From Dactylorhiza incarnata (taxonomy: Eukaryota > Streptophyta > Magnoliopsida > Asparagales > Orchidaceae): a stretch of 64,000 bases of DNA. Under the pieces are notes generated by a model, which was not told the origin of the DNA, did no database searches, and was given only the letters and a program-made list of their open reading frames with translations. Below are positions 18,367-50,282 of this stretch, piece after piece; within the stretch, counting starts at the first letter, position 1, and each line of letters starts with the position of its first letter. Made by a program: the position numbers and the translations under genes. Where the stretch lies: assembly GCA_033032865.1 (NCBI GenBank), contig JAWHQI010000228.1, forward strand, positions 1,426,001 through 1,490,000. The letters run 5' to 3'.

Positions 18367-18975
18367 GTGTCGATCAAAGCGCAAACAATGGCAGACTTCT
18401 TCGCAGACTTCTCGGGAGAAGCAGATCCATGTGAGGCACCTTCTAATCTGATTTCCTGGAATTTGATCGTAGACGGGACATTAGCCAAAAGCTTTGTGGG
18501 AGTAGGCATTGTGCTTGTCATCCCACAGGGAACTAGGATCGAGCAAGCAGTCGAGATCCTCTTCCCCATCACAAACAATCAAGCGGAGTATGAGGCAATA
18601 GTGGCGGGCTTGCGCCTTGCCAAGGAGCTAGGCATCCAGGATATTCGAGATTTCGCAGATTCCATGGTGGTCGCGTCGCAGATTCGAGGAGAAATTGAAG
18701 TGCGCGACGCCATCCTACAAAAGTACCTTTTAAAGGTGAAAGGGTTGATTGGAGGCTTCCAATCCTTCTTCGTCGAGCACGTGCCGAGAGAGGAGAACTT
18801 GATGGCCGACAGTTTGGCCAAGTATGGCGCTAGGGCCAGAGGAACGATAACCGAGTTATTTCGACCATCCATCGAAGAAGGGGAAATGATGGAGATCAAG
18901 CAGGGCCCATCCTGGATAGACCCGTTCATGGCATTCCTGACTACCGGGCAACTCCGGACAGATGACGGAGATTAA
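18367..18975 (+). pseudogene. pol: Gypsy-1 second (archaeal-type) RNase H
   Basis: About 200 codons open. LIVDGTLAKSFVGVGIVL holds the first Asp, ITNNQAEYEAIVAGLRLAKE the Glu motif, DFADSMVVASQI the next Asp, and HVPREENLMADSLAKYG the C-terminal Asp motif. This second RNase H beside the retroviral one is known from the plant Tat lineage. All four acidic positions appear present, so this is the best-kept domain of Gypsy-1. It ends at TAA 18973, where the frame should continue into integrase. Confidence 0.8.
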
Positions 18976-20094
18976 AGGAAGTTTTGGTATAAGGCGACAT
19001 ACTATCTTTTGCATAGTGGAGAGCTGTATCATAAGTCCATATTAGGCCCCTTGGCCAGATGTGTTTCAGAAGCTGAAGTACCTTGAGTTTTGGAGGACAT
19101 CCACTCGGGAGAGTGCGGAAGTCATTCGAGGACTCGCATTTTAGAGCAAATAATCCTAAGGCACGACTACTTCTGGCCAACCATCTGGAAAGATGCTGAA
19201 GCCTTCTCCAATAAGTGCCAGAAGTGCCAGCTCTTCGCCCCTCTCCATTTACAGCCGGCTCATCAGCTTGGCCAGAGGAAGTTTGTTCTCGTCATGATCG
19301 ACTACTTCTCCAAGTGGGTCGAGGGCAAACCTCTGGCCAAGACCACTTCTCAAGTTGTGAAGAACTTCATCTAGGGAGAAATAGCTTCCAGGTTTGGGAT
19401 CCCTCTCGCCATCGTCACCGACAACGGTCCCCAATTTGCCAGCTTGGAGCTGGGAGATTTCTGCAAGCATCTAGGGACAGATCTTCGATTTGCCTCAGTG
19501 CACCATCCTCAGAGCAATGAGCAAGTGGAGGCGGCCAACAAACTGATCATCATCCTCCTAAAGATGAAGTTCGAGAACCTAAGAGTGAATTAGGCAGAAC
19601 AGCTTTCTTCAGTCCTATGGGCTCTGAGAACCACTCCTAATTCAGGCACGTGAGAAACTCCTTTCAAGCTCTCTCATGATTTTGAAGCTCTTATCCCTGT
19701 GGAGTTCGAAGTCAGAAGTCCTAGAGTAGTTGAAGCAAGAGAGGGAGATGAAGAACGGCGGCTAGAGAATGAAGTGGCTCAAAGGCTATATCTCGACTAC
19801 ATCAAAGATCTCCAAGACTTTGCCTTAGCTCGGCAGGAAGAGATTAAGAGATGAATGACAAAATATTTTGACAAACACGTCCGCCTCATGCACTTCCAAG
19901 CAGGTGACCTCGTTTTAAAGAAGATGGATGCGGCAAGAAGATCAGCCGCCGTTGGGAAGCTTAATCCAAGTTGGGAAGGACCCTTCATTATCCATGAGTC
20001 ATTAGCGACTGACGAATATCGTCTGCAGAATCATGAAGGGGAGCTACTTGGGAACACCTGGAGCGGTGATGACCTGAAAAGGTTCTACCCCTAG
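18976..20094 (+). pseudogene. pol: Gypsy-1 integrase, missing its first catalytic Asp
   Basis: HSGECGSHSRTRIL and KCQKCQLFAP form the HHCC zinc finger (19100-19240). After LQPAHQL the sequence jumps to GQRKFVLVMIDYFSKWVEG: the usual WGMDI-type segment with the first catalytic Asp is absent, a deletion of roughly 20 codons near 19270. IVTDNGPQF keeps the second Asp and NEQVEAANK the Glu. The C-terminus (GDLVLKKMD, then LNPSWEGPFIIHES) ends at TAG 20092. Stops lie at 19372, 19591, 19651 and 19852. Confidence 0.8.
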
Positions 20095-21385
20095 CGGAAA
20101 TGTGTATGTCCCCCTTCTGTAAAATTATTTCACTTCAATAAATTCCTCTCCCTCTGAAACATGGGTCGCGAGAGTTATTTTTCTCTTCTAGAAGTTCTTT
20201 TCGAAGTAGGTAAAATAGATCTCCACGGCCGATTTGGGGAACAGGCCTCCGACTCGACACTCGTAAAAATCCAAGTTGGGTGGTGGGACAGCGCCTGGGG
20301 AGGGAGTTCTCCTAAGACTAAGCCTCTGCATTGACAATCGAGATCAGCTCCCCCCTTGCATGTTGGTCGAGTTACCCCCCGATTGCACTTCTCATCTGAC
20401 TGGAGAAGTTATCAGAGGAGAGTCCGGACACCAACCCCCAACTCGATGAAGATATGGCCAATTTGACCGACTAAGAGACCCTAGAATAAATGTGTCATTT
20501 ACCTTTAAATGGTTGAAAGCTCACAACAAAGCATAATATCTCTGAATTTATTTTGATCATATGAGTTGGTGTGATTAATCCCCTCTGATTGTTGAGTAAC
20601 AGAATGAAGACTCTCCGGGAACCAGGGAAAAGGAAGTAAGATGGAGGCCTCGGGATGGTGTGTTCCCATGGACCTCCTCGACTGTCATTCCCTACTCGTT
20701 GGTTCTTTCAAACAACTATCATCAAAGTAGGATGGAGGCCTTAGGATGGTGTGTCCCCTTGGACCTCCCCAACTGTCATTCCCTACTCGTCGGTTCTTTC
20801 AAACAGCTAGCAACAAAGTAGGATGGAGGCCTCAGGATAGTGTGTCCCCTTGGACATCCCTAACTATCATTCCCTACTCTTTGATTCTTTCAAACAGCTA
20901 GCAGCAAAGTAGGATGGAGGCCTCAGGATGGTGTGTCCACTCGGACCTCCCCGACTGTCATTCCCTACTTGTCAGCATCCAACATCCAAGTAGGATGGAG
21001 GCCTTGGGATGGTGTGTCCCCTAGGACCTCCCCGACTGTCATTCCCTGCTTATTCTTCTTATTCATATTCCTACTATTGTGACATCTTAAAAACTCTTAT
21101 CAGGAAAAAGTAGAAGCCTTGAGAGAGTGCGTCCTGCGGGACCCCTCGAGTGTCCTTCACAGCTTAAGCATCATCTAAAACTCTGAAGTAGGAGAGAGTG
21201 CCTATAGGCGAGTATCTACAGTGCGAGCCTGCAGGTTCAAGTATATCACAGGCTAGTAAGGTATGATCGTCGATCGCCTCAAGTACCTCCCAAGGTCGCA
21301 CTAATTGTGACGGCGATCACTCAATCTCGCTTTGAGCCTATGAGCCTAGCAAGCACTCATCGCATTCAAACCTAAGAGCCTAATC
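20095..21385 (+). other. Noncoding 3' region of Gypsy-1
   Basis: No coding frame. It holds a polyadenylation-like AATAAA at about 20137, a run of 91-bp repeats (20636-21080) and, from about 21180, short phrases rich in GCGAG/CTCGC. The same order is seen in Tat-2 at 28000-29440, which identifies the region as belonging to this element family. Confidence 0.75.
20636..21080 (+). repeat. About 91-bp tandem repeat, five units
   Basis: GTAGGATGGAGGCCT starts at 20636 (variant), 20727, 20818, 20909 and 20989, spacing 91, 91, 91 and 80. Each unit contains GGTGTGTCCCC, GACCTCCCC and GACTGTCATTCCCTACT. Related single copies lie in Tat-2 at about 28573 and 28936. Confidence 0.9.
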
Positions 21386-22347: not shown

Positions 22348-22679
22348 GCCTAAACCCGTACTCACACTTCCGGGCGCTAATGCAGTTAATAGCGGGGATG
22401 CGCACGTCAACCCGTCGGAGAGCTCCCTCCCCCCACCCGTTGGTGGAGAGGGGCTTCCATGCAAATATGAGAATTGAAGGCTTCACCTGCCCGAGTTGAA
22501 ATTCGTTACCCTTGACGCGTGCCTTGGCGGGGTCGCAACCGAGGACCTTACACTTGACTCGACATCTAGCGGTCGTAGTGGCTTTACACGATCTGATCAG
22601 GCCTCCACTTTCATACTTTGGAGACAAGAAGAGGAGTGGAGGGAGAGAAGCCCCCGACACTCCTCGCTCCGGTCGGCCA

Positions 22680-22880
22680 TGGGAGGGGAGCTCCCGGCCG
22701 GATCTCGCCTCGGACGGCCACGGGAGAGGAGCTCCCGGCCGGATCTCGCCTCGGACGGCCACGGGAGAGGAGCTCCCGGCTGGATCTCACCTCGGACGGC
22801 CACGGGAGAGGAGCTCCCGGCCGGATCTCGCCTCGGACGGCCACGAGAGAGGAGCTCCCGGCCGGAGCGAGGATCGGCCT
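22680..22880. repeat. 41-bp GC-rich tandem repeat, five units
   Basis: CTCCCGGCC recurs at 22691, 22732, 22773, 22814 and 22855. Units read GGATCTCGCCTCGGACGGCC plus CACGGGAGAGGAG. Overlapping open frames on both strands here come from the repeat, not from a gene. Confidence 0.9.
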
Positions 22881-23360
22881 CTGCTGTTGCTGGCGGCGAA
22901 GGGGAGAGGAAGTGAGGACGGGAGAAGGGGCACTGCTCCTCCTTGATCCAGGTCGACGGCGAGAGAAGGAGTCGAGGCGGCACTTCCTTGTGCGAACGAG
23001 AGGGAGAGGAGTCGGGACGGCACTTGTGGTTGCTCGCGCGAAACCGAGAGAGAGAGAGAGGGAGCCCTTGCGGCTGCTCCCAGGAAAACCAGAGAAAAAG
23101 AGGGGGTCGGGTCTTACGGCTGGGGGAGGAGAGCTGGGAGGGTTTTCCTTCTTTTAGGTTTTATAAAAACCCTAGCCTCCAAACTGGCTATCCGCAGCCA
23201 GCTCCCTAAATGCACACCAAGACCCGCTAACCGCACCCCGAAACTCCTAATCGCAGACCACGCTACAAATTTGTTAAATACCAAAATATTGGGGGCGTTA
23301 CACTCGGGTCCTGGCTATCCGGGGAGGGTCCCATCCGACGGGTACGGGGTTGTACACATG

Positions 23361-23662: not shown

Positions 23663-25078
23663 CTAGGCTTCATCCTTGCCTCCATCATCCTTGCCATCCT
23701 CCTCTTCATCCCACCCGTCGACGTCGATGTTCTCCTCTACATCCTCATCTTCATCATCTTAATCCTCGACATCACTGGGCCCCAGGGAGGGAGCTCGCAG
23801 AGGAGAGGTATACTCCTCGATGAGTAGCGCTGGGATGACGTCCATCATAGTCAAGTTCATCGCCTCCGACACCAGTGGACTTTTGCTCGCAACCTGATCA
23901 GGACGACCTTCCCAGTTGCTTGCACGATCTCTCGGTGATTCTGCGACATCTGGTCACCATGGATTCTTATCTTCTTGCCCACCCGAGAAGGACCTGCCAT
24001 GGAAGGTTGTTGCTCGATAGGGCGAGTTTCCAGATCGGCTATCCTTATTTGGGCGGCCTCCAAGGATGTCTGAGTGTCCTCCAACTCCATCTCAAGTTGT
24101 GACATCTTCTTGGCCGACACTATCTCCTCCACTTGCAAGCAAAGTAGATGGTCATTAGCAGGATAGTCGGCAATAGGCGAGTAGCGATAAAATAAGAATA
24201 TTTCAAGACAAAGCATGAATACCTTGCACTTCTCAAGTTGGAGGCCGAGCGAGATGATAGTCTTGCCCAGTGCATTTAGTCGCTCCCTAAGTGACGAGTA
24301 AGCTCCTCGCCGTCTGATGGCTTAGCTCCATCGACCGCATGAGCGGGCGCGAGGTCTGGTGAGCCAGATACTAGGTCGAGACCTCGTGTAACGACTCGGC
24401 ATCAATGCGACCATAAAAGGGAGAACATGATGTCAAACGCCTCACCTTTATACTCCCAATCCTCTGACCAAGTAGGGAGTTTGGTGCTCAGAGTCACCTC
24501 ATGGGCGCTCTCCGCATAGGTCACCAGCAGGCGACCATAGGCATCCCACTTTGGAGGCCTTCATTGAAGTTCGAATGGCCGGAAGGATCGCCAGCCTCAG
24601 AAGGGTCCTCCTTTGCCCCATGATCTTTGCTTGCGACCTGCTTCTTCTTCCTTGAGGGCTCCTAGACCTTGCCATTACTCTTCCTCTTCTTCGAAGACCT
24701 GCCCTCCTCACCGACGACCACCGGGTCATCAGTGACCTGCGATAAATCAATAGTGGAGGTCGACAACCCCCTATCCTCACGCGACAAGATCCCCTTGCCC
24801 CCTTGAGGAGAAACTGCCTCCTTCTCCACGTGGAGAGGCTCATGCGGCAGAACACGAGTAGATGCAGAAGACAAAGATTAGTCGCCATTCAAAGATGAAG
24901 GTGTGAGTATAACGGATACTCGCTCAGTAATTTACCTTCACCCAGGAAGATCTCTGCGAGCTCATCTACTCGCCTCCACCAGAAGACCGCATCAAAGTGG
25001 TGACCTCGGAAGGAGTCAAGGAGCTTCTCCAGAGGTCCCTCCAAGAAGGGAGTCTCAAAGATATGCTCTGGTGGCTGA
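23663..25078 (-). pseudogene. Antisense Transposase_28-like gene of Gypsy-1, decayed and 5'-truncated
   Basis: Counterpart of the intact antisense gene in Tat-2. Exon 3-like sequence (about 24131 down to the TAG at 23663) reads EIVSAKKMSQLEMELEDTQ and ends acidic. Exon 2-like sequence ends at 24233 with a kept donor (AAG|GTATTC). Exon 1-like sequence (25077-24936) reads LLDSFRGHHFDAVFWWRRVD and ends GAAG|GTAAATT. The exon 2 acceptor is lost: CAT stands where AG is expected before CTACTCG. An in-frame TAA sits near 23761. The 5' part is cut by Copia-3 at 25079. Confidence 0.7.
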
Positions 25079-25124
25079 TGTTGAAAATGTTGAAGTGGAA
25101 GTTGACAGTCTGGGGAGGAGGTCG

Positions 25125-26280: not shown

Positions 26281-26297
26281 CAGGTTCGAGTCGATAG

Positions 26298-26908
26298 TGT
26301 ACAACCCTCATTCTCCGAGGGTGGACCCCCCCAAGGCCACGTAGGCAGAAGTCAAAGTCAAAGAGGTCAACACGGCAGACAAGCGTAAGAGCAGAAGACA
26401 GCCTAGGCGAGTAGGGGTGCACTCGTGCGAGTAGCTCGGATACTCGCCAAAATGTGGGCGACCATAGGCGATACTCGCCCATCTGCCCGGGGAGATCGCC
26501 TCAATGTCGCTAGTCGTCGGGCAAGGGCTGGGCTATAAAACCCCCCCTACCCCTTGGTTTTCCTATAAATAGGACCCCAGGGGTACTTGGATTGGCACCT
26601 GGACTTGAGCTTTCAAAACCCTGCTCTTGCATTCTAGAACCTGTCGCACTTGGTCGCTACTCCCGGTACTAGCCAAGTCGGTGCCTTCCTCGTACCTTGC
26701 TCGGCCATTCTTTGGTCTTGGAGGGGAAGTCTCTTCGGAGCTTCTGGGTACGTGGTGGGACCTCCCTGCCGCAGCACCTGGGGTCTTGTGTGTTGCTCTT
26801 CTATCTCTTCAGTAGTCGCCAGCTTAGTCGTCTCGTTGGACTGTTGGGCGAGTAGCCTCCGGCTGCATAGGTCCGAATCTTGAGGTCGGGATTTTCCTGG
26901 CGTCAACA
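26298..26908 (+). repeat. Tat-2 5' LTR (611 bp)
   Basis: TGTACAACCC to GGCGTCAACA. Differences from the 3' LTR seen by eye: GGCAGAAG/GGAAGAAG, one A in the TATAAAA run, GTCGCC/GTCACC, GCATAGG/GCATCGG and GCGTCAA/GCTTCAA. Confidence 0.95.
26564..26572 (+). promoter_or_regulatory. TATA box of Tat-2 LTR
   Basis: TATAAATAG; a second TATAAAA is 30 bp upstream at 26534. Both are repeated in the 3' LTR. Confidence 0.6.
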
Positions 26909-26911
26909 CTT

Positions 26912-26928
26912 TGGTGCGGTGAGCGTGG
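26912..26928 (+). promoter_or_regulatory. Putative primer-binding site of Tat-2
   Basis: TGGTGCGGTGAGCGTGG begins a few bases after the LTR end. It starts with the TGG required to pair with a tRNA CCA end and differs from the Met-tRNA type used by the copia elements here. The tRNA is not identified. Confidence 0.5.
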
Positions 26929-26966
26929 ACCGTAGTCGTTGGAAGAAAGTTCAGCAAGAAGGCGAG

Positions 26967-27839
26967 ATGGTCGTAGTTGGCGACCATGAGGAGGTAGTCG
27001 GCAACTCGCCCGCAGGCGGCGAGTTCGTGACGCTAGCAGTTTTCGAAGCCTTCGCGCAGCGCATGGAGGGGATCTTGCAAGCAGCGCTTCAGCCGCGCGC
27101 CGAGGTCACGGCGACCTCGCCGCATCGCCCGGTTTTGACCAAGGGAAGGAGTCCCCTTCGGCGAGCAGGAAAGGAGCACGTGGAGGATGAGACCAAGCGA
27201 CCAAGGAGGTCGCAGTTCTACCAGCCGACCTCGCAAAGGATCCGCTTCCGCGAGACGGAGGAGCAGGCGAGATACCAAGATACTCGCCCATATGGCGAGT
27301 ATGGTGGTGATACTCGCCAGGTGAAGGATCGTCGCCGAGTAGGAGGGAGGAGCCCCTTCTACGAGGAGATCATTGCCGCATCGGTGCCAGAAGGATTCAT
27401 AGATCCCGCGATGAATTATTGCTCGGGGAGAGACGACCCTATCCGTCGAGGGAAGAGATGTAACCGGAGGAATAGCTGGAGGAGGTATAGGGATCGGGTC
27501 AGCCAAGGATGTCAAGGAAGTATCAAGGTCGGGGAGGTAGGAGTGAGTTTTGGAGAAGCGGAGCTCAGATCTTTCCGCAAAGCGAATTTCCACCAGGCCT
27601 ACCGCCAAGACTTCGCTCCAACCTCTCAAGCGCCATCCCCGCTAGAAGAAATCACTTTCTCAGAGGAGGGCATGTTAAGGGATGAGAATCCCTTCCATGA
27701 GGCCCATGTGATTGATGCGATCGTCGAAGACTTCACCGTCAACCGAATCCTGGAGTGCAACGGGGGATCTGTCCGTGTCATCTTTACGTCATTCTCACGC
27801 ACACGTTTGACGACCTGGAGATCAAGGAGAGAAGAATGA
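26967..27839 (+). pseudogene. gag: Tat-2 gag fused to decayed protease
   Basis: Open for 291 codons from ATG 26967 (VVVGDHEEVVGNSPAGGEF). The gag part is basic and Arg-rich (KRPRRSQFYQPTSQRIRFRE) and includes SVPEGFIDPAMNYCSGRDD. It jumps to the protease segment EEITFSEEGMLRDENPFHEA, where the active site reads LECNGGSVRVIF instead of LVDSGSS, so the catalytic Asp-Ser is lost. The capsid core and zinc knuckle of a complete gag are not seen. The open frame could give a truncated gag-like protein, but I class it as a deletion product. Confidence 0.65.
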
Positions 27840-28010
27840 CGATCTTGGATGACTCCCCTTTTTGATTTCTCAGGTAAGCGAAAGAAGGCGGACGCGACAG
27901 GAAAAGCAGCCGTCGTCGGGAAGCTCATTCCAAGACGGGAAGAACCCTTCATCGTGAAGAGGAGCTGTTAAGAAACACCCGGAAAGGCGATAACCTGAAA
28001 AGGCGGGAGT
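27840..28010 (+). pseudogene. pol: Tat-2 integrase C-terminal remnant
   Basis: KADATGKAAVVGKLIPR and the following EEPFIV match the last integrase codons of Gypsy-1 (about 19935-20000). RT, RNase H and the DDE core between protease and this point have been removed in a single collinear gap. Confidence 0.7.
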
Positions 28011-29440
28011 ATGTACACATCTCACCTCTGTAAATGTATTATCCATAAATAAAATAATCACCTCCCTGAAACATGGGAAATGGTGAGTCTTTTCCAGATA
28101 CGTGTTTTCACGAAAAAGAAGAAAAGCAGGCAAAGTCAATCTCCACGCTAGATTGGAAAATGAGCCTCCGACTTAACCCTCGTAAAAACTCAGAACGGAT
28201 GATGGGACAGTGCCTCGGGTGTGCGTTCCCTTAAGACCAAGCCTCTGCAATGACGGCCGAGATCAGCTCCCCCCTTGCATGTTGGCCGCGGTTCCCACCG
28301 ACTGCATTTCTCGTCCGACTGTAGAGATTACCAGGAATAAGTCTGGACGCCGACCTTCCGATTCGGCGAAGGGATGATCGATTTCACTAGCTCAGGGAAC
28401 CCTTAAAAAAAAGGCGTCGTGTACCCTCGGGAGCTAAAAAGCTCGCAGAAAAGCATTTCTTTTTTTAAATTATTGTGTTAGATCATATGAGTTATTGTGC
28501 CTAGAGTGTGCTTAACTCCCTGCTAAACTCATTGAGCAACAGGAAGCAGGTCCGATCCACATCCAGCATCCAAGTAGGATGGAGGCCTCGGGATGGTGTA
28601 TCCCCTTGGATCTCCCCGACTGCCACTCCCTGCTTGACGACGTCCTACATCCATATTCGCCGCCGCAGGTTGGAAGACGAGCCTCCGACTTGACCCTTGT
28701 AAAAACTCAGAACGGATGATGGGACAGTGCCTCGGATGTGCGTTCCCTTAAGACCAAGCCTCTGCAATGACAGCCGAGATCAGCTCCCCCCTTGCATGTT
28801 GGCCCTGGTTCCCACCGACTGCATTTCTCGTCCGGCTGTAGAGATTACCAGGATAAAGTCTGGAAGCCGATATTCCAACCTGAGAAGGGGAGCGATCGAT
28901 TCTACCGGCCAAAGGATGAAGACGTTCCGGCATCCAAGTAGGATGGAGGCCTCGGGAAGATGTGTCCCTCCAGGCCTCCCCAACTGCCCTTCCCTATCTC
29001 TTTTTCCCTTAAAAGTCCATTATTATTAAAAGAGTCTGATGAACTCTTCACCAGGTGCCAGGCAAGACCTAGAGAGCATGTGTCTCACGGTGCCCTCCAA
29101 GTAGCCTCCATTGAAGAAGGCGAGTATGTATGCGCGAGCACCTAGGCGAGTATGCAGGTGCGAGCATCTAGGCGGTGCGAGCATCTAGGCGAGTATACAT
29201 GTGCGAGCATGGATGTGCGAGTATACAGGTGCGGGCATGAAGGAGCACTCAATCTCGCCGTGACCCTAAGAGCCGAGCGAGCACTCAACCTCGCCCCGAG
29301 CCTAGGAGCCTAAGCGACATTCAAAAAAGAAAGGGATGCGAGCATCAAAGAAAAAGGCGAGCAAAATGATTATATTCATTTACTGACGTAAATACATACA
29401 CAAAAATGATTGTACAGATTTGCAAAAAGAAGACAGGCGA
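28011..29440 (+). other. Tat-2 noncoding 3' region with a duplicated block
   Basis: No gene seen. A block of about 200 bp with GAGCCTCCGACTT, AACTCAGAACGGATGATGGG and CTCCCCCCTTGCATGTTGG occurs at about 28163-28350 and again at about 28678-28865, 515 bp apart. Single units of the 91-bp Gypsy-1 repeat accompany it (28573, 28936). From 29120 to 29360 short CGAGTAT/GCGAGCA words repeat. Confidence 0.75.
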
Positions 29441-31315
29441 CTATGCATCCTCGCCACCATCATCGGCGTCGGGATCGAGATCTTCCACATCATCAACCTC
29501 GTCCTCAGAATCGTCATCGTCAGAATCGGTGGATGAGGATGGGAGATCTCGCATGGGGGAAGTGGACTCTTCGGCGAGTAATGCCGGGATGATGTCCATG
29601 ACCGTCAGATGCATTGCCTCCGGCTTCAAGAAGCCATCAGCCTTCAAGCTGCTCAGGACCACCTTCCCGGTTGCTCGAGCGATCTCCCGGCGGATATGCG
29701 CCATATCATCGCCGACTATCCGGATCTGCTTGCCCACCCTGGAGGGGCCCGCCGACGAAGGTTGTTGCTCGGCAGGCCGAGTTTCCAACTCAGCGATTCG
29801 CACTTGGGCGGCCTCCATGGTTTGCCGAGTATCCTCCAGCTCCTTCTCGGCCTGGGACAGCCTCTTTGCCGACTCCAGCTCGGCGGCCTGCAGCGAGCGA
29901 AAAGAAGAAGGTTAGTTTAAATAAGTTTGCAAGGTAGCGAGTATCCCAGAACGCGAGTAAAGTCGCATCGGTGAGTACCTCGAACTCCTTAATTCTGTTC
30001 GCCATGGCGATCATCTTCGGGCCCTGCACCTTGATCATCTGCTCATATTCGAGCAGTTTCCTCGCCGTCGCATGCCCAAGCTCGACAGCCCGCAGGTTGG
30101 CTCGCGAGCTCTGATGGGCGAGATATTCGGCCGAGACCTCTTGCAAGGATTCGGCGTCCGCGCGACCATAGAGGGCGAACGAAACGTCGAACGCCTCGCC
30201 CGCATCCTCACAATCCTCCGACCAGGCGGGGAGGTTGGTGCTCAAGGTCACTTCATGGGCTCGCTCAGCCCAGGACACCAAAGGGCGACCATAAGCATCC
30301 TCGCTGCCCCCACCTTCGCCGAAGAGAGGATGGCCGCTAGGCTCGCCCGCCTCCGATGGATCGGCCCTCGCTTTCAGATCCCTCCTGGTGACCTCCTTCT
30401 TTCTCCCAGGCTCGACGGATTTTGCCTTGGCTTTCCTCTTCTTCGAAGGCCCAGCATCATCGCCGGCAACCTCCTGATCATCGCCGCCGGGCGACAAATC
30501 AACCAAGGCAGGGGTCCCCGCCTTCGGCGCCAAGGGAAGAAGCTCGCTCGGCAAAGAGCGAGTAGCTACAACAAAATATAAAGAGAAAAACGTTAGACAC
30601 CGGGTGAAGACGAATTGGCGAGTATGACCTAATGCTCGTTTAGGCGACTACCTTCACCAGGGAACACCTCCGCGAGCTCATCTACTCGCCTCCTCCAGAA
30701 GACGACATCCAGCCGGCGACCTCGGAAGCTGTCGAGTAGCTTCTCCCGGCTTTCCTCCAGGTAAGGAGGGAAGAACGCACTCTCGGCCGGCTGGAAAGAG
30801 GAAGTCGGCACGACGCCAAAGTCGCCCTTAATGACGACTATGCGCTCCGTCCAGCGATGGTTCTTGTTCGCCGTACCGACTAGGGTGCAGACATGGCTGC
30901 ACAAAAAGACAACGCCTTCGCCAGTGGCGCCAAAGTGGAATACTCGCCGGAAGACGGAGAGATCAAAGGCGATCCCCTGATCGCGCAAGTAGCAGAGGAA
31001 CCCCACAATCATCGCCACTCCATTTGGATTGATCTGCGCCGGGACTATCCCGTGGTAGCGGAGGATCTGGCAAACCTCCGGCCACAAGGGTAGTCGCAGG
31101 CCGACTTCAAAGTGGCGGATGGGAAAGACCAACTCGGTCGCCAAGAAAGAATTCAGGCGTTCATCCTCACAAGGGAGCCTGGCGACATATCCCGGCGATA
31201 AGTACTTGGCGGAGAACTCCTTCAAGTCGCTCGGCCGAGTAATCGGCTTCTTGAAGGAATTTGCCTCGAAGTTCTTCGCGTGACTTGCACGGCGAATAGC
31301 TGCATCGTCAGCCAT
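29441..31315 (-). CDS. Antisense gene 2 of Tat-2: spliced 565-aa Transposase_28-like protein
   Basis: Proposed exons on the minus strand: 31315-30652, 30565-29979, 29887-29441. Introns start GTAGTC and GTACTC and end TTGTTGTAG and CGCTGCAG. Exon lengths 664, 587 and 447 sum to 1698 (566 codons with stop) with no internal stop. Residues about 30-130 (FPIRHFEVGLRLPLWPEV, then QILRYHGIVPAQINPNGVA) resemble the 'putative gypsy type transposon' family (Transposase_28). A basic patch PSKKRKAKAK follows at about 262-275, then a coiled coil (residues about 385-450), then a very acidic C-terminus. It probably acts in the nucleus; the biochemical role is unknown. An in-frame ATG also exists at 31372. 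The first donor could alternatively be GTGAAG at 30657, which also keeps frame. Confidence 0.75.
29888..29978 (-). other. Intron 2 of antisense gene 2 (91 nt)
   Basis: Donor GAG|GTACTC and acceptor TTCGCTCGCTGCAG, phase 0. The equivalent intron in the decayed Gypsy-1 copy is about 101 nt (donor AAG|GTATTC at 24232). Confidence 0.7.
30566..30651 (-). other. Intron 1 of antisense gene 2 (86 nt)
   Basis: Donor GAAG|GTAGTC, T-rich interior and acceptor TTTTGTTGTAG, phase 1. GAAG|GTAAATT at the same place in Gypsy-1 supports this donor. Confidence 0.7.
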
Positions 31316-31434
31316 CCAAGAGTGGAAGGATCGAAGAAGCGAGTAGCGAAGGGCGAGGAGAGGAGCAATCAAGAGATAGTCGCCAGAAGAAAGGGAAGAT
31401 CGTCAAGAGAGTAATAAATACGTATCCACCCCCC

Positions 31435-31444
31435 CTATTTATAG
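31435..31444 (-). promoter_or_regulatory. TATA box of antisense gene 2
   Basis: CTATAAATAG on the minus strand, 120 bp upstream of ATG 31315 and about 63 bp upstream of ATG 31372. It is a near-perfect plant TATA consensus and is separate from the LTR promoter. Confidence 0.65.
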
Positions 31445-31799
31445 TACTCGACAAAGCTTGGCTTCCCGCGTACGCCACCGCGAGCGCGAGTAGGAGGTGG
31501 CGCATATCGAGGAAAAGTCGCCAAAACCTGGGATGCGCGTCAAATCACTGATGTCGAACGAGCGAGCACCTGCATCGAACTTTTAGGATACTCGCAACCT
31601 CAACGCGACATCTAACAAAGACTCGCGGAAACAAAAGACAAAAAAGAAAATCAAGACATCACAGCAAACGGGAAAGACAACAAAGGCGATATTCATACTC
31701 GCCAAATACCAATTTAGTTAAAAGAAATCAAATAGTTCAGCATTACAAACATTTGCCTGAAGGCGACAAGCGACTACAAAAGGAAAAAAGGGCAGGATC
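31445..31799 (-). other. Intergenic region between the two antisense genes
   Basis: Promoter side of gene 2 and 3' side of gene 1. It contains repeated CGAGTA/TACTCG words and an A-rich stretch at 31630-31660. No coding frame seen. Confidence 0.55.
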
Positions 31800-33422
31800 C
31801 TAGGGGTTCGGTTGAGCATCGGGAAGTTGTGGTTGAAGCCCAACCCAGCCCAAACCACGAGCTCTCTTGAAATGCTCGAAGGCCACGGACATCGCATCCT
31901 CGCCTTGTCGCAGCTGTTCCTCCATCCTCGCCAGGCGACCTACGGATCCCATGCTCGCGCGCATCCCCACCAGCTCGTCATGATGCAGCTGCTGGCGATG
32001 ATCCATCCTGCCCACCCGGCGCTCCAGCTCGCCGACAGACTGAAGGCGAGATTCTACACTAGCCAGGCGAGTTTCTAACTCTTCCAGCCGTAATGCTCGG
32101 ACCTCCAGCTCGGTCAGACGACGCTGGGAGTCAGCAGCCGCCAAGAGCTCTATTCGCGCTTCAACCACGGTCAGACGCCGATGAGACTCGCTGATCGCCA
32201 GCCGCTCCAACTTCGCCTCCAAATCCAGGATGGCGCGAGTAGCCCTCTCCTGATACTCGCGAGAAGAAAGCCCGACGGCGTCGACCAGAGCCCCGATAGG
32301 GGTAGGGGCGCGAGCTGCAGGAAAAGACATGGAAGCAAAATCTTAGTGACGAGTAGCGAGAAGACTCTTCTTAGAAGATACTCGAAAAAGCAGCGACTCC
32401 ACTTACCAGGCCGATAGGCCTCACTCCGCGAATCGCGGCGAGGACTCCGAGATGGTCGGCGAGGAGAGCTCCTTCCCCGATGCGGGGACGGACTGCGATG
32501 AATGCCATCTCGCCGGTTCGAATGTGAACCGCCGATGTGCTCCCTGCTGGAGGGCACATCACCCCGACCGCGACCATCCACTGGTCGCCCTCCCCCTCTG
32601 GGAGCGAAGAAACCAGAAGATCCCGCCATCCCACCTCGACGCGAGGATCCAGCCGGATGAGCGGTAGGAGCCGAAGAAGACAGGAGGCGGCGATCATCTT
32701 GCATGTCGGCCGGAGGAGGAAACGAAGGAGGTGGAGGAAGTTGGTCCGCAGGTAGTTGCGAGCTACTCGCCACCTCAGGTCGCTGCAAAGGCGGTGGCGG
32801 CGGAAGAGGATTGCTCGCTGAAGGAGTCCTCTGCTCGCTCATCGGCCTCTTGTCTACCGAAGAGCTATGAAGGATTCGCACCGATCCGCCCTGGCGAGTT
32901 CCTCCCCCAGCCGTGTTCAGGACCATAGGCGAGGATCGTAGGGGAATGGCGCTCAGAGGCTCCTGCCGAGCATCGGCGAGAAGCGTATCTGCGAAATAAT
33001 ACAGAAAATGTCAGAGACTAGCCGACATTTGGGCGACTAATAAAAGTGGCGAGTAGGTAACTCTCACTTTGCGCAGGAGTAACTTCAACCGGATCTTGAG
33101 CCGAGATCCTCGCAGTGCTCGCCTCCGGAGCAGTATTCGGCAAAGGAAAATCAGGAGCAGGCGAGCCACCTGACTGGCCGAGACCCAAATCGGCGAGCAC
33201 CTGCTGAGTAGTGCCGACCTGGGAATCAGCGACATTCTCGGAGGCGTCGGCACTCTTCTTCTTCTTTTTCCTTTTCTCCTTCTTCTTCTCCAGGCGCTTC
33301 CTCTTCCGGGAAGAGAGGAAGTCTTCGAGCTCAACATCGCGAGCAGGCTTCCGCAACGGCGGCAGCAAACTGGCAAGCTCGGCCAAATCCGCAGCAGCTT
33401 CCTCGGCAATACTCATCGACAT
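31800..33422 (-). CDS. Antisense gene 1 of Tat-2: spliced 483-aa protein with Lys-rich, Pro-rich, RS-rich and coiled-coil parts
   Basis: Proposed exons on the minus strand: 33422-33068, 32988-32407, 32314-31800. Introns start GTGAGA and GTAAGT and end TTTCGCAG and TCCTGCAG. Exon lengths 355, 582 and 515 sum to 1452, exactly 484 codons with stop and no interruption. Residues about 39-57 are a Lys/Arg block (RKRKRLEKKKEKRKKKKK), a likely nuclear signal. A Pro-rich part follows at about 178-212, then Arg-Gly and Arg-Ser repeats (SPRRPSRSPRRDSRS, about 290-306), then a coiled coil (LEAKLERLAISESHRRL onward). No catalytic motif is seen and the function is unknown. RS repeats recall splicing-factor domains, but that is only a resemblance. 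Confidence 0.7.
32315..32406 (-). other. Intron 2 of antisense gene 1 (92 nt)
   Basis: Donor CCTG|GTAAGTGG (full consensus), acceptor TTTTCCTGCAG, phase 1. Reading through without splicing gives a stop after about 78 codons in another environment, whereas splicing joins two long frames. Confidence 0.75.
32989..33067 (-). other. Intron 1 of antisense gene 1 (79 nt)
   Basis: Donor CAAA|GTGAGAG, T-rich interior, acceptor TATTTCGCAG, phase 1. Confidence 0.7.
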
Positions 33423-33470
33423 CTTGAAGCGAGAACCAAAGAAACCTTGGCGTCAGAGACCCCTCCCCCT

Positions 33471-33480
33471 CTATATATAG
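33471..33480 (-). promoter_or_regulatory. TATA box of antisense gene 1
   Basis: CTATATATAG (self-complementary) about 49 bp upstream of ATG 33422 on the minus strand, followed by GAGGGGGAGGGG. Confidence 0.6.
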
Positions 33481-33589
33481 GGTTGGGGAGTCAAAACAGC
33501 GGGATGCCGACTACGCACTGATACTCGCCCAGAAGACAGCTCATCGAATAAGGGTTGGATGATTCTTTCCGAGCAACTACGTTACTCGC

Positions 33590-33601
33590 AAAGAGCGGGG
33601 A
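33590..33601 (+). promoter_or_regulatory. Polypurine tract of Tat-2
   Basis: AAAGAGCGGGGA, three bases before the 3' LTR. It has one pyrimidine, so it is an imperfect tract. Confidence 0.55.
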
Positions 33602-33604
33602 TTG

Positions 33605-34216
33605 TGTACAACCCTCATTCTCCGAGGGTGGACCCCCCCAAGGCCACGTAGGAAGAAGTCAAAGTCAAAGAGGTCAACACGGCAGACAAGCGTAAGAGCA
33701 GAAGACAGCCTAGGCGAGTAGGGGTGCACTCGTGCGAGTAGCTCGGATACTCGCCAAAATGTGGGCGACCATAGGCGATACTCGCCCATCTGCCCGGGGA
33801 GATCGCCTCAATGTCGCTAGTCGTCGGGCAAGGGCTGGGCTATAAAAACCCCCCCTACCCCTTGGTTTTCCTATAAATAGGACCCCAGGGGTACTTGGAT
33901 TGGCACCTGGACTTGAGCTTTCAAAACCCTGCTCTTGCATTCTAGAACCTGTCGCACTTGGTCGCTACTCCCGGTACTAGCCAAGTCGGTGCCTTCCTCG
34001 TACCTTGCTCGGCCATTCTTTGGTCTTGGAGGGGAAGTCTCTTCGGAGCTTCTGGGTACGTGGTGGGACCTCCCTGCCGCAGCACCTGGGGTCTTGTGTG
34101 TTGCTCTTCTATCTCTTCAGTAGTCACCAGCTTAGTCGTCTCGTTGGACTGTTGGGCGAGTAGCCTCCGGCTGCATCGGTCCGAATCTTGAGGTCGGGAT
34201 TTTCCTGGCTTCAACA
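33605..34216 (+). repeat. Tat-2 3' LTR (612 bp)
   Basis: Collinear with the 5' LTR, followed by the duplication GATAG (34217-34221). Confidence 0.95.
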
Positions 34217-34280
34217 GATAGAGCAGTGAAAACCTTAAAGTTGCCATCGCCTTTGTGAAGAAGGAACCAGTGGTAGAGCC

Positions 34281-34910: not shown

Positions 34911-35807
34911 TGTCGTTCATGTCGGGAGAGTGCAAAAGACTTGTTCATTTTATCGACAAGTTCTTATGTTGACAAGATGAGGACCAATGATAGTGCCGTC
35001 ATATGGCACGAGAGGTTGGGGCATGTAGGGATGGATAAACTGAAGGCTATGACGATAAAAGGTCTGGTCAAGGGCCTGCCTAGTCTATCTTCCTATGGTG
35101 ATTGTCATGTTTGCGCAGGATGTCAGTTCGGCAAGCCACGTCGACTACCATTTGATAAGTCACAGACAAGGAGTAGTGTGCTGTTGGAGTGTATCCATGG
35201 TGACTTGATGGGACCAACTGCTACCGCAAGCCTCGGAGGCAGCAAGTATATGCTGGTGTTGATCGAAGATTACACCAGATATGTTTGGGTTTATTTATTG
35301 AAGGAGAAGGCAGAGGCGTTTACCAAGTTTGTGGAGTTCAAGGAGCTTGTGGAGGGTCGGCTAGGTCTGCGGGTAAAGAAGCTAAGAACTGACAACGGGG
35401 GGGGGGGGGAGTTCACCTCTGGTGAGTTCTCTAGTTTTTGCAGGAAGGCGGTCATCCAGAGGGAGCTTACTTGTGCGCATACTCCACAACAAAACAGAGT
35501 TGCAGAGCGGAAGATCTGTCATCTGACGGAGACCTGCAAGTGTTGGCTGCATGCCAAGAGTATCCCAAGGTCCTTCTGGGCGGAGGGAATGTCTTGTGCT
35601 GCCTACGTCATCAACAGGATGCCTCTCAGTCCCATCAACATGTTGACCCCGCATGAGATGATGTTTAAAGAAAAGCCAAGCGTGGTACACCTTCGGGTGT
35701 TCGGTTCCACCTGCTACGTGCACGTTCCAGATGCGCTTCAGATGAAGCTAGATGCGAAAGCAAGAAAGCTGGTCTTCGTGGGATATGATGATCGGAAGAA
35801 GTGCTAG
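34911..35807 (+). pseudogene. pol: Copia-3 GAG-pre-integrase and integrase (protease missing)
   Basis: In the same frame as gag. There is no DSG protease motif. IWHERLGHVGMDKLKAM and CHVCAGCQFGKPRRLPF give the HHCC zinc finger. DDE residues: Asp in IHGDLMGPT, Asp in LRTDNGGGG, Glu in QQNRVAERKICHL. The G-run at 35398-35409 lengthens the normal 'DNGGEF' to DNGGGGEF. RVFGSTCYVHVPDA and KLVFVGYDDRKK close the domain. The stop at 35805 is a nonsense change within the frame. Confidence 0.85.
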
Positions 35808-48303: not shown

Positions 48304-48526
48304 TTTGTAAACACCTACCCGCATGGACCTACAAACATGCATATATATACGTACACATAACATCATAAATGACTCAATCGAGGATAACTCGCCGGACGAC
48401 GACGATCACGCAACGGTAACGCCCCTACGCACCTACGCCCTGAATTAAAATCTCGCTTTAGAATAATTATTATTAATTCCATATGACTTAAATAAAATAA
48501 TTATAAGAAAAACCCGGGGCGTTACA
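47481..48526 (-). repeat. Minus-strand gypsy-type LTR fragment inside CACTA
   Basis: On the minus strand 48526 starts TGTAACGCCCCGGG, the opening of many plant gypsy LTRs. Further along, a TATATAGG box (about 47890) precedes a GC-rich, GAGAGAGA-containing leader-like sequence (47830-47560), as in LTR R regions. No internal gypsy sequence or second LTR is present, so it may be a solo or truncated LTR. The left border is not defined. A (TA)n run is at 48255-48292. Confidence 0.5.
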
Positions 48527-48952
48527 GTGTGTACCTCTGTATGTTTGTGTGTGTGTGTGTGTCTATGTATGTGTATGTGTCTGTGTTTGTGTGTGTCTGT
48601 GTGTGTGTGTCTGTGTATCTGTCTGTGTGTTTGTTTGTCTGTGTGTTTGTATGTGTTTCTGTATGTGTGACTGTATGTGTTTATATGTGTCTATATGTGT
48701 CTATATGTGTCGGTGTGTCTATCTGTGTTTTTTTGTGTCTGCCTATGTTTGTCTGTGTCTGTCTTTGTGTCTGTATCTATTTGTGTCTGTGTCAATCTGT
48801 GTATGTGTTTGTGTCAGTTTGTTTCTGTGTTTGTGTCAGTCTGTTTCTGTGTATGTGTATGTGTATGTGTCTTTGTGTTTGTGTTCGTGTCTGTGTCTGT
48901 GTGTCTGTCTGTATCTGTATCTGTGTCTATCTGTGTATGTGTATGTGTGCTG

Positions 48953-48993
<41 letters not shown>

Positions 48994-49220
48994 TGTTTGT
49001 GTGTTTGTGTGTCTGTGTGTCTGTGTGTCTGTGTGTCTGTGTGTCTGTGTGTCTCTGCGTCTGTGTGTCTGTGTGTTTGTGTGTCTGTGCGTCTGTGCAT
49101 GTGTGTCTGTCTGTGTGTCCATGTATCTATGCGTGTCTGTGTGTGTCTGTGTGTGTCTGTGTGTTTGTGTTTGTGTTTGTGTGTGTGTGTCTGTGCGTGT
49201 GTTTGTGTGTCTGTGCTTTG
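48527..49220. repeat. GT/CT-rich degenerate minisatellite (about 690 bp)
   Basis: TGTGTGTCTGTGTG and variants with almost no other sequence. All three forward frames are open for over 250 codons with only Cys, Val, Leu, Ser and Phe, which is a by-product of composition. Confidence 0.9.
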
Positions 49221-50282
49221 CAAGAAAATGCTCCCGAGCGAAAACGTGTGCGGTGGTCGCGCGTGCACACAGGAGTGTCTTTGCGTGCGTGCGGGGGCCG
49301 TGCGCGATCGTTATTTTTATTCTAAAATTATGTAATAAATTAATGTCATATTTGTATTCATTTTTAAATTTAATGTTTTTTATTTTTGGATTTTTTTTTG
49401 CAAAATTTTATGGACGAAAATTTTCCTTCATATATTTCATTTGTGTAAAAGAGAGTGGGAGAGAAGAAAAACTTTTATAAAGAAGTTTCAAAATTTTATA
49501 AAAACTTTATATAAAGATTTATAAAAACTTTATTTAAAGAAACTTTATATATCTTTAACTAATATATATAAAGAAACTTTAAAGTGATTTTTTATTAAAA
49601 TATAAATGTTTTTGAAAAAAATAATAATAAAATATTGATGTATATTTTTTACGGTCATTTTGAGTACTCATATGTATATGTTGTGGCGAAGCCCGCCGTC
49701 ACCGGCCGGGTACTGTAGAATGCAAGTGCAGCCCGCTCGAATACGGGCGTAGCCCGCTAAGAATCAGCGAGCACGGGCGAAGCTGCTCGCAAAGCTTTAT
49801 ATAAAAACTTGCACCAAGTTGAAAAATGTGCGCCCACGAGAAAATGTGTAACTAGCTAGGCTAAAACGTGCCCGGGTGAGAAAAAGCACCAGGACGAAAA
49901 AAGCGCGCCCGTAAATATGTGTTTTTGAAGAAAACGCTAGCTCCTGAGCGAATAACTTGTGCGTAAATAAAATTGTGCTCGCGAGCCAAAAAGTGTGCGC
50001 AGTCAAAAACACGTGCCCTGACAAAAATGAACTCGGGAGAGAATGAGTGATGATTCGAAAATGCGTTCTCGGGCGAAAACATGCTCCCGGGCAAAAATGC
50101 GCGCCTGTGAGACAATGCGCCCGGGCAAAAATGCATGCCGAGAAATAAAACGCGCATCCGAGTGAAAAGCTCGTGCTCGAGCGAAAAAAGGGCGCTCGAA
50201 GGGTACAATTATTTCACCGCTGCGCACAATGAAAAAATATGCGTGCATGCGGGGCCAGTGCGCGATCGTTATTTTTATTCAG
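49221..50282. other. Right CACTA interior with CGGGCGAAAA repeats
   Basis: AT-rich at 49320-49670. From 49680 to 50200 words such as CGGGCGAAAACATGC, GCGCCCGGG and GAGCGAAAA repeat roughly every 20-25 bp. TGCGCGATCGTTATTTTTATTC occurs at both 49300 and 50262. No gene seen. Confidence 0.6.

Follow-up and report, generated by a model that had tools for sequence, protein, structure and literature searches.

Antisense open reading frames (ORFs) with a TRP28 domain are a published hallmark of Retand elements: in the excerpts of the survey that describes them, antisense ORFs are present in every representative Retand cluster and TRP28, detected through ORF Finder, in 61 of 63 recently active ones, the domain has been reported only from elements, and the function of these ORFs is given as unknown (PMC11963269). 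In maize, Grande gene23 is transcribed in antisense from its own promoter and has a nuclear location, and the 2020 review from which this is taken calls, in the sections considered, for antisense and spliced transcripts to be examined (PMC7264820). Our study concerns a stretch of 64,000 nucleotides from the orchid Dactylorhiza incarnata (hereafter, the window), in which two genes, A and B, each interrupted by two short introns, lie on the antisense strand of a 7,919-bp long terminal repeat (LTR) retrotransposon copy. It is likely that these genes, placed in the accessory region of a Tat-clade, Retand-like element, are expressed and spliced and encode proteins that aid the element.

As in the Retand lineage (Retand, RIRE2 and maize Grande gene23), the TRP28 gene of the window is antisense and located between pol and the 3' LTR (PMC11963269, PMC7264820); the 5-bp target site duplication (TSD), a pol with two RNase H domains (here present in sibling copies) and the existence of non-autonomous members, which have been reported, are further points of likeness (PMC11963269). 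An earlier note on this DNA had stated that antisense Transposase_28-type ORFs occur in Tat elements, which agrees with what is published for Retand (PMC11963269). The locus differs in that its genes have introns, whereas the available text of the survey, whose ORFs come from ORF Finder, describes none; in that the window copy retains next to nothing of the integrase and neither the reverse transcriptase (RT) nor the two RNase H domains, whereas the survey clusters were collected by intact RT; and in gene B, as no B-like gene is named in that text, although a further antisense ORF, labelled Smc, DNA polymerase III gamma/tau or otherwise, is given for several clusters (PMC11963269). Ogre is likewise a Tat-clade element that uses host splicing, but its intron is in the sense strand, between gag-prot and RT, and is removed from part of the transcripts, whereas the window introns are antisense (PMC6317226, PMC12786077). 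Functional sense introns are described for both Ogre and EVADE among plant LTR elements (PMC12786077), so that the earlier statement that retroelements do not keep sense introns holds as a norm with exceptions. The best functional analogy for A and B is HBZ of human T-cell leukemia virus type 1 (HTLV-1), an accessory gene that is antisense to its retroelement, is spliced and has a nuclear protein as its product, with no sequence relation claimed (PMC11963269); HBZ is a single gene whose transcription starts in the 3' LTR, whereas here there are two genes, probably transcribed from internal TATA boxes. In the literature searched we found no paper on introns in antisense TRP28-type genes, which Gomez-Orte 2013 or Steinbauerova 2011 may describe; the parts considered of PMC11728184, PMC10606437, PMC9289625 and PMC3091746 contain nothing on them. 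The new parts, absent from the literature examined, are the introns, the RGG/RS-rich gene B, the codon-level selection and the persistence in a pol-less derivative.

Gene A is composed of three exons (664 + 587 + 447 = 1698 nt, 565 aa) and so is gene B (355 + 582 + 515 = 1452 nt, 483 aa), both on the minus strand (Table 1). Recomputing the gene coordinates and exon sums proposed earlier gave exactly the same values, with zero internal stops, exact closure of the phase and GT..AG borders at all four introns. None of the intron lengths (86 and 91 nt in A, 79 and 92 nt in B) is divisible by three, and reading through them would therefore shift the frame. The TATA box of its own with which each gene had been credited is also borne out, since neither CTATAAATAG upstream of A nor TATATATAG upstream of B shows any change in the 19 distinct copies described below; the leading C of TATATATAG sits at the extraction edge and is absent from one row.

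A second subfamily (family 2) was found through the 5' region 26950-27850, not through the genes; 40 copies were scored and the gene-sized stretch of eight was fetched, from which L033 was dropped for having zero match in the gene region, and L036, which has A and lacks B, was left out of the comparisons of gene B. Over the antisense half, the seven remaining copies show about 67% identity to the window, except L036 with 54%. All seven match the window in the length of gene A exon 1, exon 2 is 48 nt longer in all seven, exon 3 is longer by 21, 27 or 39 nt in six (the seventh, L032, is frameshifted), and the introns differ in length by 1 and 2 nt. Four of the seven (L029, L030, L034 and L035) have preserved both the frame and the splice sites of A, the others presenting a broken acceptor (L031), one stop (L036) or a frameshift with stops (L032). 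Gene B is open in L029, L034 and L035, its start lying inside the fetched stretch only in L035 (474 aa), and is interrupted in L030, L031 and L032; its second intron is GT..AG and 88 nt long in all six copies, the donor having been positioned manually owing to gaps in the alignment at this point. Both subfamilies keep A and B with introns at the same places. Identity to the window is 65-77% in the A exons and 49-56% in the A introns. The ratio of nonsynonymous to synonymous divergence against the window (dN/dS, or omega) is 0.17-0.20 for A (four copies, dS 1.2-1.3) and 0.23-0.25 for B (three copies, dS about 1.03), ratios that are approximate since synonymous sites approach saturation at such dS values, near 1 or higher; within B, codons 312-483 have an omega of 0.12-0.13 and codons 1-118 one of 0.39-0.53.

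An exon-by-exon frame test compared the window with one family-2 copy, L034, in six frames per exon, covering A exons 1-3 and B exons 2-3 (B exon 1 lies outside the test). In five of the five exons, the stop-free frame with low omega was the one that the splice model predicts: offsets 0, 2 and 0 for A exons 1, 2 and 3 (omega 0.09, 0.24 and 0.27), and offset 2 for both B exon 2 (0.28) and B exon 3 (0.15). The other antisense frames of the same exons gave 0.85-2.05, and the introns of A, too short to read at 86 and 91 nt, gave 0.00 to 1.26 across six frames. This switching of frame at the introns is the strongest evidence for them short of RNA.

A search of the 3.27-Gb genome with gene A yielded 4,311 first-look candidates, of which 40 (window included) were scored, all of them matching at full length or one base short with 99-100% identity. 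Twenty of the other 39 were fetched; the window and these 20, chosen by gene A similarity, form the 21 family-1 rows. Of these, 18 have an intact A and 13 an intact B, and all rows covering a given intron show GT..AG. In a second sample of 12 loci chosen by gene B similarity, including the window and six copies already in the first, 11 loci have an intact B and all 12 an open exon 1 of A; B is intact in four of the five new loci. Both samples are biased toward good copies, and the family-1 copies are 97-99% identical over the region, so intactness by itself tells us little. L014 and L020, which match L013 at all 4,102 positions compared, were dropped from the variant counts, leaving 19 distinct copies. 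Nei-Gojobori dN/dS among these is 0.18 for A and 0.45 for B, against 1.60 and 2.09 (A) and 0.77 and 1.18 (B) in the shifted frames. Relative to a context-matched null of 5000 shuffles, A has 62 synonymous, 43 nonsynonymous and 2 stop variants (expected 37.6, 65.7 and 3.7), and B has 82, 90 and 7 (expected 57.7, 113.7 and 7.6); in neither gene did any of the 5000 shuffles match the synonymous count, and in neither was there a depletion of stops alone against this null. The A variants common to at least two copies (16 synonymous, 4 nonsynonymous) indicate strong constraint. As a yardstick, the same 12 pol-bearing copies give an omega of 0.31 for RNase H-integrase, 0.37 for A and 0.62 for B: within the family, A is constrained about like RNase H-integrase and B less. 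The earlier proposal that both genes are under purifying selection is upheld by the low dN/dS within and between subfamilies and by the predicted frames in all five exons tested. A dN/dS near 1 with frequent stops in siblings, named at that time as a sign to the contrary, is not what A presents; for B, the overall constraint speaks in the same direction, whereas the shared variants of close copies lack significant constraint. As a separate observation, L013, L014 and L020 are about 9.23 kb apart on one contig (C1514), with zero mismatches over the 4,102 gene-region positions, which probably reflects tandem duplication in the recent past; L020 is distinguished by the insertion of a single base in gene A.

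With regard to the proteins, the Transposase_28 profile search proposed earlier identified TRP28 (PF04195, E=1.5e-10) in A, with 43.6 bits in the exon 1 frame and 41.6 in the spliced protein, above the curated cut-off of 26.2; gene B reached at best 11.8 bits against a cut-off of 40 in Pfam (E=0.35) and matches no described family there. Protein A, acidic (pI 5.0), combines the TRP28 domain with a basic stretch of the KKRK type, a segment resembling a coiled coil and an acidic tail, and protein B is basic (pI 10.35), first Lys/Arg-rich, then RGG- and RS-rich, then coiled-coil-like. The basic stretches may be read as nuclear signals, and the two compositions suggest nuclear, nucleic-acid-binding partners. 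Comparing A exon 1 with solved structures gave 0 matches. Three Platanthera zijinensis proteins (P0001-P0003), annotated models with a gypsy-type transposase domain, match A with 49% identity over 93-94% of its length; they resemble it in the order of parts and align without gaps across junction 1, and they differ by an 8-residue insert exactly at junction 2 and by other C-termini. Among the 7,991 candidates scored in a profile search with A, no proteins other than these three from the orchid were recovered, an absence that is weak since only candidates sharing most words were scored.

The window copy has LTRs of 611 and 612 bp, between which an inspection of the alignment by eye shows four mismatches and one gap, and a 5-bp TSD, GATAG, at 26293-26297 and 34217-34221, as in Tat/Retand elements. 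The earlier note was right to place the genes inside an element, whose span (26298-34216) extends past the coordinates given there. Compared with L051/L009, the copy is missing about 1.0 kb within gag and roughly 3.4 kb spanning protease to integrase; a Pfam search of its gag/protease remnant gave zero matches, and a scrap of integrase is the sole residue of RT-RNase H-integrase. With this segment and part of gag gone, it is a pol-less deletion derivative and not an autonomous member. The earlier view that the sense pol is dead or missing therefore stands for the window copy and fails for the family, since RNase H-integrase is found upstream in 14 of the 20 fetched copies (12 distinct). L010, L012 and L024 have the same pol-less form as the window; L015, L017 and L026 gave no match in the RNase H-integrase search and were left unassigned, although the match of L015 to the window crosses the pol-less junction and reaches back to 27844.

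In L011, RVT_3 (4e-20) is followed by Integrase_H2C2 (5e-10) and rve (4e-15), and in the L051 stretch, located directly upstream of L009, a sense frame stays open over at least 1,268 codons and includes Retrotrans_gag (9e-8), RVT_1 (1e-27) and RT_RNaseH (2e-17). The order RNase H, archaeal-type RNase H, integrase is described for Ogre and Retand (PMC6317226, in part); the archaeal-type second RNase H is seen in the siblings only (L051 plus L011), the window copy lacking the whole stretch. From the integrase remnant (27968) to the 3' LTR (33605) there are about 5.6 kb that include the antisense TRP28 gene, within the 2.9-6.6 kb from POL to 3' LTR that characterizes Retand. On these features, we classify the family as a Tat-clade, Retand-like Ty3/gypsy element, TRP28 and the layout pointing to Retand and not to Ogre; the gag, RT, dual RNase H and integrase of the siblings are in accord with the gypsy-type, Tat-type assignment made earlier.

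In the reading that we favour, the A/B region would be the long POL-to-3' LTR accessory region, with ordinary-looking eukaryotic genes on its antisense strand. Each gene would most likely be transcribed from its own TATA promoter, the host spliceosome would remove two short introns per transcript before translation, and the proteins, as nuclear, nucleic-acid-binding accessories, might raise the success of the element, for example via chromatin, RNA or complementary DNA (cDNA); we infer this transcription, splicing, nuclear location and role from the sequence. The introns would persist since they are present in the packaged sense RNA solely as complementary sequence, and the pol-less window copy would be moved in trans by pol-bearing relatives. 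Intact antisense genes in an element without its own copying enzymes suggest that accessory proteins matter to such elements. Exact exon models and four junctions are now available for testing A and B, and since an ORF finder blind to introns would fragment such genes, similar pairs may hide in other plants.

Several observations weigh against this reading. Gene B is broken in 8 of the 21 family-1 rows; its variants common to at least two close copies (15 synonymous, 23 nonsynonymous; P=0.20) and those among the four pol-less family-1 copies (15 synonymous, 25 nonsynonymous; omega 0.77, P=0.25) show no significant constraint; and it has no homologue at E 0.001 among the 7,994 candidates scored, an absence as weak as that for A, the candidates having been chosen in the same way. 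The intergenic stretch is 63-65% identical between subfamilies (48% in L036), as similar as A exon 2 (65-66%), so raw identity alone is no marker of coding there. In addition, one sense frame per exon also has a low omega (0.26-0.45) but contains 2-11 stops; these frames were rejected as real genes because of their stops, and their low omega mirrors the antisense codon positions. The fold prediction for A exon 1, based on 4 sequences, was not confident (mean pLDDT 42.4) and did not lead to a fold search, and the nuclear and binding roles are drawn from composition and published guesses.

The pol-less copies bear on where selection acts. In family 2, direct reading of two copies showed them to be without pol and to follow the window colinearly over 26298-29366, and the other five are taken as pol-less from their spacing. 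There is about an even chance that A and B are passengers in pol-less copies, brought by recombination or recent descent, with selection acting in pol-bearing sources. The gene-region tree, which leaves the place of the window itself unresolved, does not group the pol-less copies in one clade but intersperses them with pol-bearing ones (L024 with pol-bearing copies at 0.983; L010 and L012 with pol-bearing L027 at 0.874). Similarity between subfamilies is 89-99% in the 5' internal region as far as about 28.8 kb, then 74-83%, and in the genes about 67%, which points to exchange between copies; such exchange with pol-bearing copies can explain constraint in pol-less ones, and the non-significant result for B among the four pol-less family-1 copies fits it as well. 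What passengers would not lead one to expect is the constraint on A, both among those four copies (19 synonymous and 9 nonsynonymous variants, expected 9.8 and 17.3; omega 0.26; 0/5000) and among the seven family-2 copies (86 synonymous, 83 nonsynonymous and 3 stop; omega 0.49; 0/5000), where its shared variants are 9 synonymous and 2 nonsynonymous (15/5000). For B, omega is 0.53 in six family-2 copies (1/5000) and a non-significant 0.65 (248/5000) in five, with L029 left out.

The presence of A and B in pol-less copies also allows us to ask whether their proteins act in cis. A tentative and rather unlikely possibility is that the antisense pair is a self-serving module, selected even in elements that discard gag and pol, whose proteins favour, in cis, the element encoding them; if true, a non-autonomous retrotransposon would be living by a pair of antisense genes with introns, in place of the sense genes on which such elements usually depend.

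The favoured reading, in which expressed and spliced genes encode proteins that aid the element, has further competitors. That the antisense RNA itself matters, for example as a source of double-stranded RNA tuning the element, with the proteins incidental, has been proposed for such regions in the part of the review considered (PMC7264820), but codon constraint, exon indels in threes and the switching of frame at introns are unexpected of a non-coding RNA and make this improbable. Even less credible is a recent transduction of captured host genes: the introns and the TATA-like boxes are host-like, but both genes are present in two subfamilies with dS above 1, the sole homologues found for A are orchid TRP28 proteins annotated as gypsy-type (host single-copy genes were not searched separately), and the survey excerpts report TRP28 only from elements (PMC11963269). 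Chance open frames in young copies, which the 97-99% identity of family 1 might favour, are rejected by the constraint within and between subfamilies and by the frame test.

Table 1. Positions in the window of the retrotransposon copy, its antisense genes and their candidate promoters.
Feature	Position	Strand	Evidence or remark
LTR retrotransposon copy, pol-less, 7,919 bp	26298..34216	+	TG..CA LTR ends, 5-bp TSD
5' LTR, 611 bp	26298..26908	+	LTR alignment
gag/protease remnant	26909..27839	+	about 1.0 kb of gag missing relative to L051/L009
Integrase C-terminus remnant, 29 residues	27882..27968	+	tblastn 48% identity, E=4e-4
Gene A exon 3, including stop	29441..29887	-	omega 0.27 vs L034
Gene A intron 2, 91 nt	29888..29978	-	GT..AG in 21/21 family-1 rows, 7/7 family-2 copies
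Gene A exon 2	29979..30565	-	omega 0.24 vs L034
Gene A intron 1, 86 nt	30566..30651	-	GT..AG in 21/21 family-1 rows, 6/7 family-2 copies (L031 ends AA)
Gene A exon 1, TRP28 domain	30652..31315	-	omega 0.09 vs L034
TATA-like box CTATAAATAG of gene A (candidate promoter)	31435..31444	-	19/19 distinct copies
Gene B exon 3, coiled-coil-like, including stop	31800..32314	-	omega 0.12-0.15
Gene B intron 2, 92 nt	32315..32406	-	GT..AG in 20/20 family-1 rows covering the intron
Gene B exon 2, RGG/RS-rich	32407..32988	-	omega 0.28 vs L034
Gene B intron 1, 79 nt	32989..33067	-	GT..AG in 21/21 family-1 rows, 6/6 family-2 copies having B
Gene B exon 1	33068..33422	-	codons 1-118 omega 0.39-0.53 vs family 2
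TATA-like box CTATATATAG of gene B (candidate promoter)	33471..33480	-	TATATATAG in 19/19 distinct copies
3' LTR, 612 bp	33605..34216	+	LTR alignment

The surroundings of the element present additional features. Beyond its right end there is copia pol sequence (34911-35807), its left flank resembles what we take to be a copia primer-binding region, and the element is probably nested in a copia element. Its POL-to-3' LTR stretch contains a 210-nt unit twice (28150-28359 and 28667-28876, 93% identical), and units of about 91 nt that occur twice there (28559-29017) are found in tandem at 20621-21069, in an older element. This older element, of the same layout as the window element and also inside the window, comprises RNase H-integrase on the plus strand at 18394-20019 (73% protein identity to that of L011) and, downstream and antisense, a decayed relative of gene A at 23795-25101 on the minus strand. 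A GC-rich tandem array with a 41-nt unit is located at 22622-22877, with long open frames on both strands (22597-23160), and a simple-repeat stretch at 48496-49480 has long Val/Cys-rich open frames that are most likely low-complexity and not coding.

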